NCBI GenBank assembly: GCA_025462725.1
Contig: JAOAPE010000005.1
Location: forward strand, 186,001-250,000
Length of the DNA stretch: 64,000 nt
Reading direction: 5' to 3'
DNA from: Terriglobales bacterium
Lineage (GTDB): Bacteria > Acidobacteriota > Terriglobia > Terriglobales > Acidobacteriaceae
Below the pieces are notes generated by a model. That model had not been told where the DNA came from and ran no database searches. It was given only the letters and a program-made list of their open reading frames with translations. The translations under genes were made by a program, and so were the position numbers. Shown here one piece after another: positions 32,081-35,437 of this stretch (positions are counted from its first letter, which is position 1; the number at the start of each line of letters is the position of its first letter).

Positions 32081-32088
32081 TGTCAAGA
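32081..32088. repeat. Target-site duplication, left copy (TGTCAAGA)
   Basis: TGTCAAGA abuts the left inverted repeat of the IS1595-type element; the identical octamer follows the right end at 34651-34658. Eight bases is the known target-duplication length of the IS1595 family. Confidence 0.9.
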
Positions 32089-32113
32089 CAGGATTATCTA
32101 CTTCACAAAAGTA
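32089..32113 (+). repeat. Left terminal inverted repeat of the IS1595-type element
   Basis: 25 bp starting CAGGATTATC. Pairs with 34626-34650 with three mismatches. Confidence 0.9.
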
Positions 32114-32128
32114 CGGCGGGGGTGTTAA

Positions 32129-33046
32129 ATGACTAAGCCGCTGCCGTTTGTAGTACCGAAAAAGCCCAAGATTCCGCAGCGCGCTAAGGGAGTGAGGCGG
32201 ATGACGATCATTGCTGGATTTAGTGGCTGGGGCGGTGTCGTGCTTTGTGCAGACACGCAAGAGACCGTAAGTGGATATGGTAAGCGAGAGGTTGAAAAAA
32301 TCTCGGTCGGAGGTCAAATGGCAGACATGGACTTTAATGTTGCTGTTGCGGCAGCAACCGACTCCGGTCCTCATGCAGATTCCCTGACGGGCGAACTGAT
32401 TTACGCAGTCTCTCAAGTGAAGGTCTATTCGCTGAGCAGGATCAAGGAAGAAATTGAAAAGAAACTCGCCGAGTATCACGCAAAACATATCTGGCCGAGA
32501 GCGTCCCAAGATCGGCCACACATAGAGACGATAGTGGTCATTCAGCACGCCGAGGGTGGCCATGCTGACATGTTCCACACCACGGATACAGCCGTTAACT
32601 GGGTTAGCGGTAGTCGGTGCTGTATCGGCGTGGGAAGCCATCTTGGAGACTTCATTCTGGAAAGGACGCTTCAAGGTGCAGGCAGTAAGAGTCACATGCT
32701 AGCCGTGGCAGCGCACATGTTGAAAGAGGTGCGTGAAAACATAGATGGGTGCGGGAAGAATGCCACAATCTGGTTTTTTGGAAAGGACGGAACGTGTGAA
32801 CAATTTTATAACGATAGATTCAAGTTTATGGAAGATCAGGTGGAGGATGTAAACGATGTCCTAAAAGAAGCAATGCGATATATGACCGATGTAGAGGAAG
32901 ACAGTGATGGTGAGGCACTACTTCACAGGTTAGATATTGAAAGGCGAAAGAACCGGGAACACTATGAACAAGAAATGGAACAAGAGCGCAAAATGGAGGA
33001 GTGGCGGCAGAAGATGAAAGATGGCACGGAAGACGCGCCATTCTAA
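32129..33046 (+). CDS. Proteasome beta-like Ntn hydrolase carried by the transposon
   Basis: 305 residues with GGGGGTG 4 bp before ATG 32129. A 25-residue basic leader (MTKPLPFVVPKKPKIPQRAKGVRRM) precedes TIIAGFSGWGGVVLCADTQET. This matches the mature N terminus of proteasome beta/HslV-type subunits: nucleophile Thr26 becomes Thr1, Asp42 corresponds to Asp17, and Lys52 or Lys57 to Lys33. CIGVGSHLGDFILERTL...SHMLAVAAHMLKEVRENIDGCGKNATIWFFGKDG matches the late GxG / helix H3-H4 / GG region. The C terminus adds a long charged coiled coil (LHRLDIERRKNREHYEQEMEQERKMEEWRQKMKDG) not found in proteasomes. No ATPase partner is encoded nearby. Probably a self-processing peptidase or amidase. Confidence 0.75.
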   Translation: MTKPLPFVVPKKPKIPQRAKGVRRMTIIAGFSGWGGVVLCADTQETVSGYGKREVEKISVGGQMADMDFNVAVAAATDSGPHADSLTGELIYAVSQVKVYSLSRIKEEIEKKLAEYHAKHIWPRASQDRPHIETIVVIQHAEGGHADMFHTTDTAVNWVSGSRCCIGVGSHLGDFILERTLQGAGSKSHMLAVAAHMLKEVRENIDGCGKNATIWFFGKDGTCEQFYNDRFKFMEDQVEDVNDVLKEAMRYMTDVEEDSDGEALLHRLDIERRKNREHYEQEMEQERKMEEWRQKMKDGTEDAPF

Positions 33047-33057
33047 TCAGAAGATGC

Positions 33058-33582
33058 CTAACGTGAATCTAGAGACGCAATCGGATCGGACACCTTTGTC
33101 AACTTCACACGCTCAAGCGGTGGAGCAACAATCGTGTGACCGCACACCATCTTTCCGACAAAGAATCCACTCTTTAATTTGGCGCGTAACTCGTTTTCAT
33201 CCTTTAGGAGTTGATCTCCCATTGGGATATGCAATCGGATGGGAAATCTGCAATCTGTTTGAGCGCATAAAAATTCTACGGAGTAACAATCTGTATCAGA
33301 GCGGAACCGACCTGGGGCCGAGTATGGTGCGAGATGCCAGCGGACATCTGCAACCGTGTAAAGAAACACATGTCCGCATTCGCGGCACCGGATATATGCA
33401 GACCAAGATGCCGTGGGCCAGCAGCCCACTGGATCTTCATCTTTTTCTAGAAGGTGTTGATTTCGCCCGAAGAGAGTGGCAGTCTGCGGCAAATTGTGAT
33501 GTGGCAAAGTGATATGGAAATATTGAAAGCGATGCGCGTGGATGTTTTTACAATTAACGACTGGCTGTATGTAGTCGCCCAT
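33058..33582 (-). CDS. Cys-rich hypothetical protein inside the transposon
   Basis: 174 residues. YIRCRECGHVFLYTVADVRWHL and SDTDCYSVEFLCAQTDCRFPIRLHIPMG give Cys pairs CxxC and C-x7-C-x4-C, and GKMVCGHTIVAPP adds a Cys-Gly-His near the C terminus, so a zinc-binding fold is plausible. The frame stops 11 bp from the hydrolase stop (convergent) and starts 1 bp before the transposase stop, so it is probably co-transcribed after the transposase. The antisense frame (33021-33512, plus) lacks such motifs. No family recognised. Confidence 0.6.
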   Translation of the reverse strand: MGDYIQPVVNCKNIHAHRFQYFHITLPHHNLPQTATLFGRNQHLLEKDEDPVGCWPTASWSAYIRCRECGHVFLYTVADVRWHLAPYSAPGRFRSDTDCYSVEFLCAQTDCRFPIRLHIPMGDQLLKDENELRAKLKSGFFVGKMVCGHTIVAPPLERVKLTKVSDPIASLDSR

Positions 33583-33583
33583 T

Positions 33584-34462
33584 TTATGCGGTCAACTTTT
33601 CAAAGGTTAGTGGGTCGGCGGTAACCATATGCTTCAAGGTGTCCAAAAACAAGTCGGAGTTCTTGCGGCGATTAAAGCGAAAAGTCATTTCGTCCAAGTA
33701 TGCGGGGAGATGCTTAGGGCTGACACGATGCCACGTTCCGATGATTCCACGCTTCAAAAGAGAGAAGGCGGATTCTACGGTATTCGTGTAAACCTCACCA
33801 CGAACGTACTCCCCTTTGCTGTGGCAAACAGTTTTGTGCTTCTTTTCAAATTGCGTCATGTCGAAGTTGTACAGTTTGGATTCGTCAGTGACGATAATCT
33901 CAACATCGTTGGCCACGTTCTTAGCAATGATGTCGTACATCTTCTCTTTGGTCAGATTGCTTGCTTTGATGAAATGCAAACGTCCACCGCGCTCACGAAT
34001 GCCGATAACAGGGGTTTTGTTGAGCCATTTAGTGGACTGCGGTTTACCTTTGCCACCCACATAGGTTTCGTCAATTTCAACGATGCCCGACAGTTTGAAT
34101 TCAGCGTCTTTCATGGCAGCGCGAATACGATGGCAGAGATACCAAGCTGTTTTGTAGCTGACTCCCAAAGTGCGCTTGATTTGGTTTGCGGACATTCCCT
34201 TGCGAGATTCACAAAGCAGATAGGTAGCAGTGAACCATTTAATCAATTCCAAGTGGGTGTCATGGAAGATCGTGCCACTCAGGACGCTAAATTGGTAGTC
34301 ACACTCAGCGCACCAAAACACTTTGCTGTTAGTGGACAGGCGCACAACGCCCTTGCCTTTGCAGCGGAGACATTCAGCACCATCAGGCCATCGCAACCGT
34401 TCCAACAGTTCGCGGCATCGTTCATCACTAGAGAATGCTTGGCAGAGGTCAATAACAGTCAT
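33584..34462 (-). CDS. IS1595-family (ISXO2-like) transposase
   Basis: 292 residues from ATG 34462. N-terminal zinc ribbon CLRCKGKGVV...FWCAECDYQFSVLSGTIFHDTHLELIKWF; HTH segment KGMSANQIKRTLGVSYKTAWYLCHRIRAAM; catalytic strand GIVEIDETYVGGKGK (first Asp), EIIVTDESKLY (second Asp), and KGEYVRGEVYTNTVESAFSLLKRGIIGTWHRVSPKHLPAYLDEMTFRFNRR (the N-x2-E IS1595 variation of the third acid). All key residues are present and the frame is unbroken, so it may be active. Longer upstream starts to 34570 are less likely. Confidence 0.93.
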   Translation of the reverse strand: MTVIDLCQAFSSDERCRELLERLRWPDGAECLRCKGKGVVRLSTNSKVFWCAECDYQFSVLSGTIFHDTHLELIKWFTATYLLCESRKGMSANQIKRTLGVSYKTAWYLCHRIRAAMKDAEFKLSGIVEIDETYVGGKGKPQSTKWLNKTPVIGIRERGGRLHFIKASNLTKEKMYDIIAKNVANDVEIIVTDESKLYNFDMTQFEKKHKTVCHSKGEYVRGEVYTNTVESAFSLLKRGIIGTWHRVSPKHLPAYLDEMTFRFNRRKNSDLFLDTLKHMVTADPLTFEKLTA

Positions 34463-34586
34463 GGCTAGTACTCCAAAGAAAGATTTAAAGCGCGTTTCAA
34501 CTCGCAAGTTAATGGCATCAGTGAAGCAGGACATTCGGAAGGCACTGAAACTACCGCCGCAACCGCCCAAACCGAAGAAACCGTAA
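34461..34586 (+). CDS. Possible 41-residue basic ORF at the right end of the transposon
   Basis: MASTPKKDLKRVSTRKLMASVKQDIRKALKLPPQPPKPKKP; its ATG lies back-to-back with the transposase ATG on the other strand. Strongly basic with a Pro-Lys tail, and an AGAGG site 12 bp upstream. It could be a small DNA-binding protein or a chance frame through the transposon's divergent promoter region. Confidence 0.35.
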   Translation: MASTPKKDLKRVSTRKLMASVKQDIRKALKLPPQPPKPKKP

Positions 34587-34625
34587 CACTTACGTTCACC
34601 ATGAGTTAAGAATAGGGTACATAGC

Positions 34626-34650
34626 TACTTTTGTCAAGTATATAATCATG
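34626..34650 (-). repeat. Right terminal inverted repeat of the IS1595-type element
   Basis: Reverse complement begins CATGATTATA and shares 22 of 25 bases with the left end at 32089-32113. Confidence 0.9.
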
Positions 34651-34658
34651 TGTCAAGA
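34651..34658. repeat. Target-site duplication, right copy (TGTCAAGA)
   Basis: Identical to 32081-32088. Removing the element plus one copy rejoins the repressor promoter region to the early-gene promoter region. Confidence 0.9.
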
Positions 34659-34684
34659 ACTCTATTTCCTTTCCGTCATTACAC

Positions 34685-34713
34685 TTGCATGCCATATATC
34701 TATTTGTTATTAT
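34685..34713 (+). promoter_or_regulatory. Promoter of the cI-like repressor, probably giving a leaderless mRNA
   Basis: TTGCAT (34685-34690), 17-bp spacer, TATTAT (34708-34713). The start point would fall at 34720-34721, on the A of the repressor ATG. No Shine-Dalgarno sequence is present. The lambda cI transcript from PRM is also leaderless. Confidence 0.5.
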
Positions 34714-34720
34714 AATTTCC

Positions 34721-35437
34721 ATGAAATTCAAAGCCCTTCAGGAAAACCTTCGTAAAACCATCCGCCGTCGCATTGACGAAGGCGATCTCACTGGACTCAA
34801 GCTCGCCCAGCAGACTGGATTTCAACAAGCTCACATCTCCAACTTCTTGAATTCCAAGCGGTCTCTCAGCTTAGAGGGCATGGACAAAGTCCTCCAAGTG
34901 CAGCATCTCTCCGTGCTCGATCTGCTTGACCCCGCTGAGATCAATAAGCGCGCCAGCATTCTGCCGCCTTCTGAAGACGACTTTGAGGATGTGCTCCTCA
35001 CCGAAGGCGCCATCGCTGCCGGTGACCCGTTGATCACGAATGAAAATGTGAAGGACATCCTGAAGTTCAAGAAGAGTTTTCTTCGCCGTCTTCGTCCCGC
35101 GCAGGAAACTCTGCGTGACAGCTGGCACCGCTTCGTCCTCGTCAAGGTCGACGCCCGCGACGGCATGAGCATGTATCCCCGCCTTCTGCCCGGCGCCACA
35201 GTGCTCATCGACCGTCACTACAATTCACTTGCGCCTTATCGCAAGAACGAGCAGAACATGTATGCCGTCCGCAAAGATGGCGGATGCACGGTGAAATATG
35301 TCGAGATGGCGGAAAACAATCTTGTCCTCCGTCCGCACAACCAAACCTATCCTGTCTCTCTCCTGCCTATCGAAGAAGACAAAACCTTTGGCGACTACAT
35401 CATCGGCCGCATCTGCCATGTCGCCATCGAAGCCTAA
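34721..35437 (+). CDS. cI-like phage repressor with S24 self-cleavage domain
   Basis: 238 residues from ATG 34721. N-terminal HTH: LTGLKLAQQTGFQQAHISNFLNSKRSLSLEGMDKVLQV. C-terminal LexA/cI peptidase: cleavage site EGAIAA/GDPL (Ala100-Gly101), catalytic Ser150 in DGMSMYPRLLPGATVLID and Lys192 in GGCTVKYVEM. Lambda cI has cleavage at 111-112 and Ser149/Lys192, so size and spacing match closely. Expected to silence the minus-strand phage genes and to self-cleave on RecA activation. The IS1595-type element now separates it from those genes by 2.6 kb. Confidence 0.9.
   Translation: MKFKALQENLRKTIRRRIDEGDLTGLKLAQQTGFQQAHISNFLNSKRSLSLEGMDKVLQVQHLSVLDLLDPAEINKRASILPPSEDDFEDVLLTEGAIAAGDPLITNENVKDILKFKKSFLRRLRPAQETLRDSWHRFVLVKVDARDGMSMYPRLLPGATVLIDRHYNSLAPYRKNEQNMYAVRKDGGCTVKYVEMAENNLVLRPHNQTYPVSLLPIEEDKTFGDYIIGRICHVAIEA

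Follow-up and report, generated by a model that had tools for sequence, protein, structure and literature searches.

A proteasome-like hydrolase as passenger of an IS1595-family transposon and of related elements in the Acidobacteriaceae

The window element and its insertion site

The DNA analysed here (hereafter, the window) is a stretch of 64,000 nucleotides from a Terriglobales bacterium of the Acidobacteriaceae (GenBank assembly GCA_025462725.1, contig JAOAPE010000005.1, positions 186,001 to 250,000), whose genome comprises 4.33 Mb. We are virtually certain that positions 32089-34650 of the window are a complete and mobile transposon of the IS1595 family of insertion sequences (IS) with a gene for a proteasome-like peptidase. 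Across this bacterial family, peptidases of this sort prove to travel regularly and interchangeably on transposons of two kinds, the IS1595 and the IS1 type. The features of the element and its borders are as follows (strand in brackets):

32089-34650: whole IS1595-family element, 2,562 bp, recognised by its ends, its duplication and its intact transposase
32081..32088 (no strand): left target-site duplication TGTCAAGA, exact 8 bp
32089..32113 (+): left terminal inverted repeat, matching the right end at 22/25 positions
32129..33046 (+): proteasome-like N-terminal nucleophile (Ntn) hydrolase with a Pro/Lys/Arg-rich leader, 305 aa, recognised by profile, predicted fold and catalytic residues
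32201..32206 (+): internal start ATG followed by the Thr1 codon, giving a putative leaderless form of 281 aa
33058..33582 (-): Cys-rich, zinc-ribbon-like protein, 174 aa, an optional accessory gene with homologues near other IS1595 transposases
33584..34462 (-): IS1595-family DDE transposase with an N-terminal zinc ribbon, 292 aa, recognised by Pfam and NCBIfam
34461..34586 (+): conserved basic microprotein, 41 aa, recognised by profile and coding signature
34626..34650 (-): right terminal inverted repeat, 22/25 to the left end
34651..34658 (no strand): right target-site duplication TGTCAAGA, exact 8 bp

The hydrolase is the first gene of the element, at its left end, and relatives of that end are present in 16 further IS1595-type elements; the start codons of the microprotein and of the transposase overlap in a CATG. 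The transposase matched PF12762 (DDE_Tnp_IS1595; 4.1e-33), PF12760 (zinc ribbon; 8.3e-10) and the NCBIfam IS1595 model NF033547 (192.6 bits, cut-off 75; 7.8e-57). The element has the ISXO2-like DDE domain, the Zn ribbon, the 8-bp duplication and the inverted repeats by which the IS1595 family is recognised, and a passage of PMC12561309 describes 8-bp repeats for another IS1595 member.

In two congeneric genomes (G518 and G412; loci L112 and L113) the site is unoccupied and the flanks are joined at a single TGTCAACA, which argues that the insertion is an event and not old synteny; four more loci align at the insertion site on the right flank only. A preliminary description, made from the sequence of the window, had recognised a complete IS1595-type element that is AT-richer than its surroundings and carries a proteasome-beta-like Ntn hydrolase, and each of these points is borne out, the GC content being 48.2% in the element and 53.5% in the adjoining 1.5 kb to either side. 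A decayed relative lies elsewhere in the same genome (G000:C26; L015), where a hydrolase open reading frame (ORF) is accompanied by a Cys-rich ORF of 65 aa and the remnant of a transposase.

In the region 34651-35437, a gene for a helix-turn-helix (HTH)/S24 (LexA-like) regulator starts at 34721, ~70 bp downstream of the element, and because of this proximity the insertion may disturb the promoter of that gene. A -35-like TTGACA is obvious inside the terminal repeats; a search for -10 sequences there succeeded in 6% and 12%, as against 2-3% in controls, in a test that is badly anchored and from which no inference is drawn.

The hydrolase, its leader and its two candidate start codons

The window hydrolase is too divergent to serve as a single query, and profiles were therefore needed. 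Alone, it scored below the cut-off of the Pfam Proteasome family (E 0.18), a cut-off passed by four of the first seven homologues (L015, L016, L017 and L019, and not L013, L014 and L018); as sole query it gave a best PDB match at E 0.88, matched 7 of 396 genomes of the phylum, its own included, and matched no viral contig. Hydrolase matches that carry names are mostly Acidobacteriaceae or Acidobacteria records from metagenome-assembled genomes. An alignment of eight sequences has six invariant columns, among them the equivalents of Thr1, Asp17 and Lys33 (8/8); in an alignment of 46 sequences the Asp and the Lys are invariant and the Thr is present at at least 90%, the nucleophile position being occupied by a Ser in L052.

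The 46-sequence profile matched proteasome beta(-2) subunits (2e-15) and Anbu (1.7e-11) in the PDB. The AlphaFold2 model of the window hydrolase (pLDDT 92.6, pTM 0.87) ends in two long C-terminal helices (204-229 and 237-273) and has two early helices (56-71 and 78-97). Among the best 50 of 1230 Foldseek matches of the model, Anbu is closest (E 1e-10; template modelling score, normalised by target length, 0.78-0.80 for the first four) and proteasome beta comes next. No NCBIfam model scored above its cut-off for any of the eight hydrolases. We are confident that the protein has the predicted fold of a proteasome beta subunit with Anbu as the nearest fold; the sequence profile scores proteasome beta above Anbu.

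The codon directly before Thr1 was read in 64 of the 68 family loci described below (L060, L085, L092 and L108 left out), and is ATG in 44, GTG in 19 and TTG in one. GTG is used for 279 of the 1,092 Val codons in the hydrolase bodies and for 19 of 19 at this position, so that the codon before Thr1 is not a chance occurrence and points to a start codon. Removal of the initiator Met after such a start would expose Thr1. Upstream of the internal start, at least 12 codons are open in 58 of the 64 loci; they encode a leader rich in Pro (20%), Lys (11%) and Arg (17%), as compared with 4%, 5% and 5% in the bodies, and Pro falls to 7-8% in the shifted frames of the leader. An R-L-P motif is frequent in the leader, with variable third codon bases, and at a few loci (e.g. 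L014, L016 and L053) the leader is absent. From these patterns we infer that one gene would give both a leader-tailed form, in which Thr1 is masked, and a leaderless active form. Alternatively, the leader could be an autoprocessed propeptide; autocatalytic removal alone would leave unexplained that the residue before Thr1 is always specified by a start codon.

Recurrence, exchange and companion genes

With the eight-sequence profile, the hydrolase was matched in 72 of the 398 genomes searched from this bacterial family (58 at E 1e-10 or better), with one to four matches per genome. In a phylum-wide sample searched with a larger profile, 47 of 396 genomes matched, ten of them at E 1e-20 or better, and 10 of 13 weak matches inspected look like ordinary HslV. 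We assembled 68 loci, namely 60 stretches from the family search (each with E at most 4.1e-11), the window and L013-L019, and every one of them again yielded the hydrolase. An ORF or fragment of an IS1595 or IS1 transposase lies within 1.3 kb of the hydrolase in 44 of them; in 36 it is convergent with and 3' of the hydrolase (23 IS1595, 13 IS1), and in eight it is in another orientation, tandem (L101, L105, L088, L094, L084, L108) or divergent (L064, L070), loci that we read as a second architecture. The remaining 24 have no transposase nearby; several are at contig ends, in at least eight (L015, L016, L055, L074, L067, L073, L100, L103) there is a remnant of a transposase, an end that matches or a complete element lacking the transposase, and others (e.g. 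L014, L053 and L018) are solo hydrolases with neither transposase nor remnant detected. Given the density of transposases in 20 of these genomes (71 IS1595 and 16 IS1 matches per ~95 Mb, from rounded sizes), adjacency is expected at about 0.1-0.2%, and the 36 of 68 convergent cases correspond to a binomial p of ~1e-86, the loci not being fully independent.

As controls, 13 HslV-type loci (L147-L159) were fetched with ~1.5 kb of flank on each side, and 12 were used after L157 was dropped; by our reading of the sequences ten are HslV-like and two Anbu-like, and none of the 12 has an IS1595 or IS1 transposase as neighbour. L157, from another family of the phylum (genome G362), encodes a divergent hydrolase whose N terminus resembles a leader and whose immediate neighbour is an IS1-type transposase. 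One relative with a Pro-rich leader was found in IMG/VR, on a 107-kb viral contig (L160:4863-5654; IMGVR_UViG_3300047576_000027), and the stretch fetched around it holds no IS1595 or IS1 transposase. The thaumarchaeal matches L128 and L129 have no transposase of either family and by our reading resemble ordinary proteasome subunits.

Exact 8-bp duplications flank 24 hydrolase elements, 16 of the IS1595 type (the window included) and eight of the IS1 type, and a further IS1595-type element (L097) has a 7-bp duplication. The IS1-type elements have ends of the form GGTA(G/C)TG, and L094 differs in having its transposase in the opposite orientation. The search for ends with an 8-bp duplication succeeded in 16 of 27 real IS1595-type loci as compared with 2 of 702 mismatched pairings of left and right sides, which argues that the duplication-flanked ends are not due to chance; the two mismatched successes presumably come from L051/L083, a pair with one and the same duplication, ACTTCAGT. 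L194 has this duplication too, and the flank occurs repeatedly in L083, which suggests insertion into a repeated (REP-like) target. An element similar to that of the window in plan, L017, has the duplication CTCTGTGG; its transposase is 56% identical, its microprotein 54% over 26 residues and its hydrolase ~20%. The element at L103:4028-5438 (1,411 bp), whose ends match perfectly (20/20) and are flanked by an 8-bp duplication, has no transposase, and contains a hydrolase (69% identical to that of L101) and a 129-aa ORF. By eye, that ORF resembles a PD-(D/E)XK nuclease, and the ends of L103 are similar to the ends found for the IS1595 element of L189. Some hydrolase copies are damaged: L092 has a split frame, and L060 and L108 are in two pieces.

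The preliminary description had proposed to check whether the four genes of the window element recur as one block with its own duplications at unrelated sites. Homologous ends with their own duplications do surround the hydrolase at many unrelated sites. The hydrolase is repeatedly accompanied by both the transposase and the microprotein, but the Cys-rich gene is an optional part, its slot elsewhere holding other genes or nothing, and the block of four is not constant as a whole. The possible ORF of 41 residues in that description proved to be a real gene, as its conservation and coding signature argue. It is present in 17 of 17 complete IS1595-type hydrolase elements, the profile having been built from 14 copies and L065, L066 and L072 found independently, and also in L086 and L087. 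In 18 aligned cores (the search pattern missed L082, L194, L196 and L197), entropy is highest at third codon positions (1.53, vs 0.89 and 0.47), identity is higher between the amino-acid sequences (63%) than between the DNA sequences (59%), and stops are absent from the gene's own frame only; the consensus is RVPTRKLLASIKRDLR...KPKKG. The microprotein went undetected in four of the 23 convergent IS1595 hydrolase loci, of which L054, L069 and L077 end in or just past the transposase and L093 has a remnant only.

The microprotein profile found nothing in IS1-type hydrolase elements, and a role as a general IS1595 part was rejected, as 36 of 40 other IS1595 loci, and L020/L021 as well, gave no match to the microprotein. 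Of those 40, only L194-L197 possess it, and each of them also encodes a cargo protein of the Ntn type, recognised by a score above the Pfam cut-off in L194, by scores short of that cut-off in L195 and L197 and by its motif alone in L196; in IS1595 elements the microprotein is therefore seen only with Ntn-type cargo. The converse fails, since the Ntn-like L191 has no microprotein. A basic KGG protein of ~90-100 aa is encoded in all eight complete IS1-type hydrolase elements, with its gene at the right end in every one but L094, and most of these elements have additional genes that vary; a similar protein occurs in L201, L202 and L204, which have no hydrolase, and the KGG protein was thus rejected as hydrolase-specific. 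Additional genes for small Cys-rich, zinc-ribbon-like proteins are found repeatedly in the vicinity of IS1595 and IS1 transposases: homologues of the window protein lie beside different IS1595 transposases in L192 (E 6e-7) and L189 (E 8.1e-5), Cys-rich ORFs were seen by eye in L015, L079 and L080, and the ORF of L015 is matched by L066; the resemblance of L079 is weak and that of L080 was judged by eye only.

Exchange of the cargo is apparent in three pairs of elements (L051/L083, L082/L096 and L072/L081), which share 79-86% DNA identity over ~1.1 kb (transposase, microprotein and right end) and 82-89% over the 77-84 bp that align on the left; between these conserved ends their hydrolases give no DNA alignment. 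Across 17 IS1595-type loci (L087 in, L092 out), mean identity is 65% for the transposase and 20% for the hydrolase, and the rank correlation between the two is -0.15 (p 0.09; pairs not independent). Transposases 84-90% identical are paired with hydrolases 17-22% identical, as in L051/L083 (90% and 22%). In a tree of 58 hydrolases, in which bootstrap support is not fully settled and several branches are long, IS1595 and IS1 labels interleave, and a clade supported at 100/93 unites L013 (IS1) with L051 and L052 (IS1595); on shuffling of the labels, IS1595 is no more clustered than shuffled and IS1 is more clustered. The dN/dS ratios (nonsynonymous to synonymous rates) of three close hydrolase pairs are 0.09, 0.15 and 0.10, rough values as every dS is above 1; four further pairs are saturated. 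The coding sequences of these close pairs show the signature of purifying selection, and positive selection as a source of the divergence finds no support in them. Exchange, interleaving and dN/dS together point to a hydrolase that is probably functional and that moves between elements and transposase families, unbound to one transposase.

Possible functions and comparison with known systems

To what use the passenger slot of IS1595 elements is otherwise put was surveyed in 40 other loci (L161-L200), which commonly carry ~0.5-2.4 kb of passenger DNA. A candidate pair of ends was obtained for 32, a few of them weak; the region left of the transposase was translated in 29, and the main protein of 19 was searched against Pfam. 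Six of the 19 slots gave a family above cut-off: RelA/SpoT (L168), M78 peptidase with DUF4411 (L170), DUF3800 (L176), DUF433 (L179), Schlafen AlbA_2 (L185) and Proteasome (L194). The L168 protein is also the PADLOC candidate PDC-S33 (2.3e-93). Several of these families are characteristically found in toxin-antitoxin or defence loci, and it is mainly because some slots of sister elements hold such toxin- or defence-like genes that we read the hydrolase as conflict-type cargo.

Our best overall explanation, to which we give a probability of about 0.6, is an IS1595 transposon with a threonine peptidase in leaderless and leader-tailed forms, a conflict-type role for that peptidase and a microprotein that goes with the transposase end. 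The transposon would insert with an 8-bp duplication and the gene at its left end would be expressed; translation would start directly before Thr1 and methionine aminopeptidase would expose the nucleophile; the long C-terminal helices might mediate assembly of the subunit into a peptidase like Anbu or the proteasome, and a second, upstream start would give the leader-tailed form with Thr1 masked. By degrading proteins that belong to rivals (phage or other mobile elements) or to the host, the peptidase would then keep or protect the element, and the microprotein may act in transposition or as an adaptor. We read the hydrolase as a mobile and exchangeable proteolytic module whose type is most likely conflict or defence. 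Taken singly, a conflict or defence function against host or rival proteins is a tentative assignment, at clearly less than even odds; that the family is a new kind of mobile, proteolysis-based defence or addiction, a transposon-dwelling conflict module with two forms, traded between IS1595 and IS1 elements and partnered by the microprotein in the IS1595 branch, is a possibility more tentative still.

Several results weigh against such a role or against free exchange. PADLOC 2.0.0 matched none of ten proteins (eight hydrolases and the window's Cys-rich protein and transposase), so that a known defence system is rejected, and the window element has no known defence gene beside the hydrolase among the two proteins scanned. 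Thirteen of the 19 slots have no known family or, by eye, membrane proteins, and phage and plasmid collections gave no match to the L055 homologue at E 0.01. In 13 IS1-type loci the rank correlation between transposase and hydrolase is 0.27, and some close transposases of this set keep related hydrolases (L079/L080: 85% and 45%). The defence cargo suggested in the preliminary description is a putative role, favoured by the contents of some sister slots, cargo exchange and purifying selection and set back by the PADLOC result.

The chief rival explanation, which we regard as doubtful, is that the hydrolase regulates transposition, degrading or processing its own transposase or the microprotein and so limiting copy number. 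The convergent transposase in 36 of 68 loci, the one to four matches per genome, the constant company of Ntn-type cargo for the microprotein in IS1595 elements and the small basic proteins that both element types, apart from L094, encode at their right end would all fit a regulator. Closely similar transposases (84-90% identical) with widely different hydrolases would not, nor would clades shared by IS1 and IS1595 hydrolases, the absence of the microprotein from IS1-type elements or the retention of the hydrolase by L103 without any transposase; cargo exchange and L103 weaken the proposal, and the pairing with the microprotein keeps it alive. It is unlikely that the protein is a housekeeping, ATP-independent peptidase that benefits the host by clearing damaged proteins and is merely shuttled by transposons: purifying selection, the Anbu-like fold and the solo copies would be expected of it, but patchy distribution, extreme divergence, exchange and a slot that is partly of conflict type are unusual for housekeeping.

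Proteasome-like homologues include the ligase connectase (PMC8665760), and a protein ligase of that kind or another transferase with the same Thr1 chemistry could be imagined here; we consider it quite improbable, as connectase is without the first two helices (PMC8665760) and the model has both early helices, as well as a long C-terminal helix like that of Anbu. That the gene is a decaying hitch-hiker, caught by accident and doing nothing, would suit the broken or partial copies, but is contradicted by the adjacency, by dN/dS near 0.1 and by the conserved triad, and is scarcely credible.

Many bacterial proteasome homologues lack a known function or an informative gene context. Here, a large hydrolase group with conserved catalytic residues has a very clear one, two transposon families with cassette-like transfer, and the orphan question on bacterial proteasome-like peptidases becomes testable through phage and plasmid entry, host survival and transposition. 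The elements also show an IS1595 passenger slot of this bacterial family acting as a carrier for fast-changing genes. IS passengers as such are already known, and for a proteasome-like peptidase as IS1595 or IS1 cargo we found no published description: at the level of titles and the beginnings of abstracts, no proteasome-like cargo is described and nothing joins proteasome and IS1595. A title by Siguier et al. from 2009 reportedly links IS1595 and IS1.

Passenger genes in IS families are treated under the term tIS in a passage of PMC7986276. The elements resemble IS1595 and tIS elements in their DDE transposase with zinc ribbon, their 8-bp target duplication and their passenger region, and differ from the known ones in the recurrent proteasome-like peptidase, the conserved microprotein and the exchange with IS1-type elements. 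With Anbu, HslV and the 20S proteasome beta subunit the hydrolase shares the predicted fold and the Thr1-Asp17-Lys33 equivalents, and its long C-terminal helix is as in Anbu, which has the C-terminal helix H5 (PMC8665760). Fuchs, Alva and Lupas (2021) described 22 newer proteasome homologues, with a genomic context not suggestive of function, in a main text in which 'transpos' and 'acidobacter' occur nowhere (PMC8665760); the context here is a transposon, a distinction drawn from the text of that paper. Like the phage-borne PPH and AAH (PMC8665760), the present hydrolases are proteasome homologues spread by mobile elements; unlike them, they travel in insertion sequences and not in phages (order Caudovirales for PPH), and the window protein has 281 residues in its leaderless form as against ~140 in PPH.

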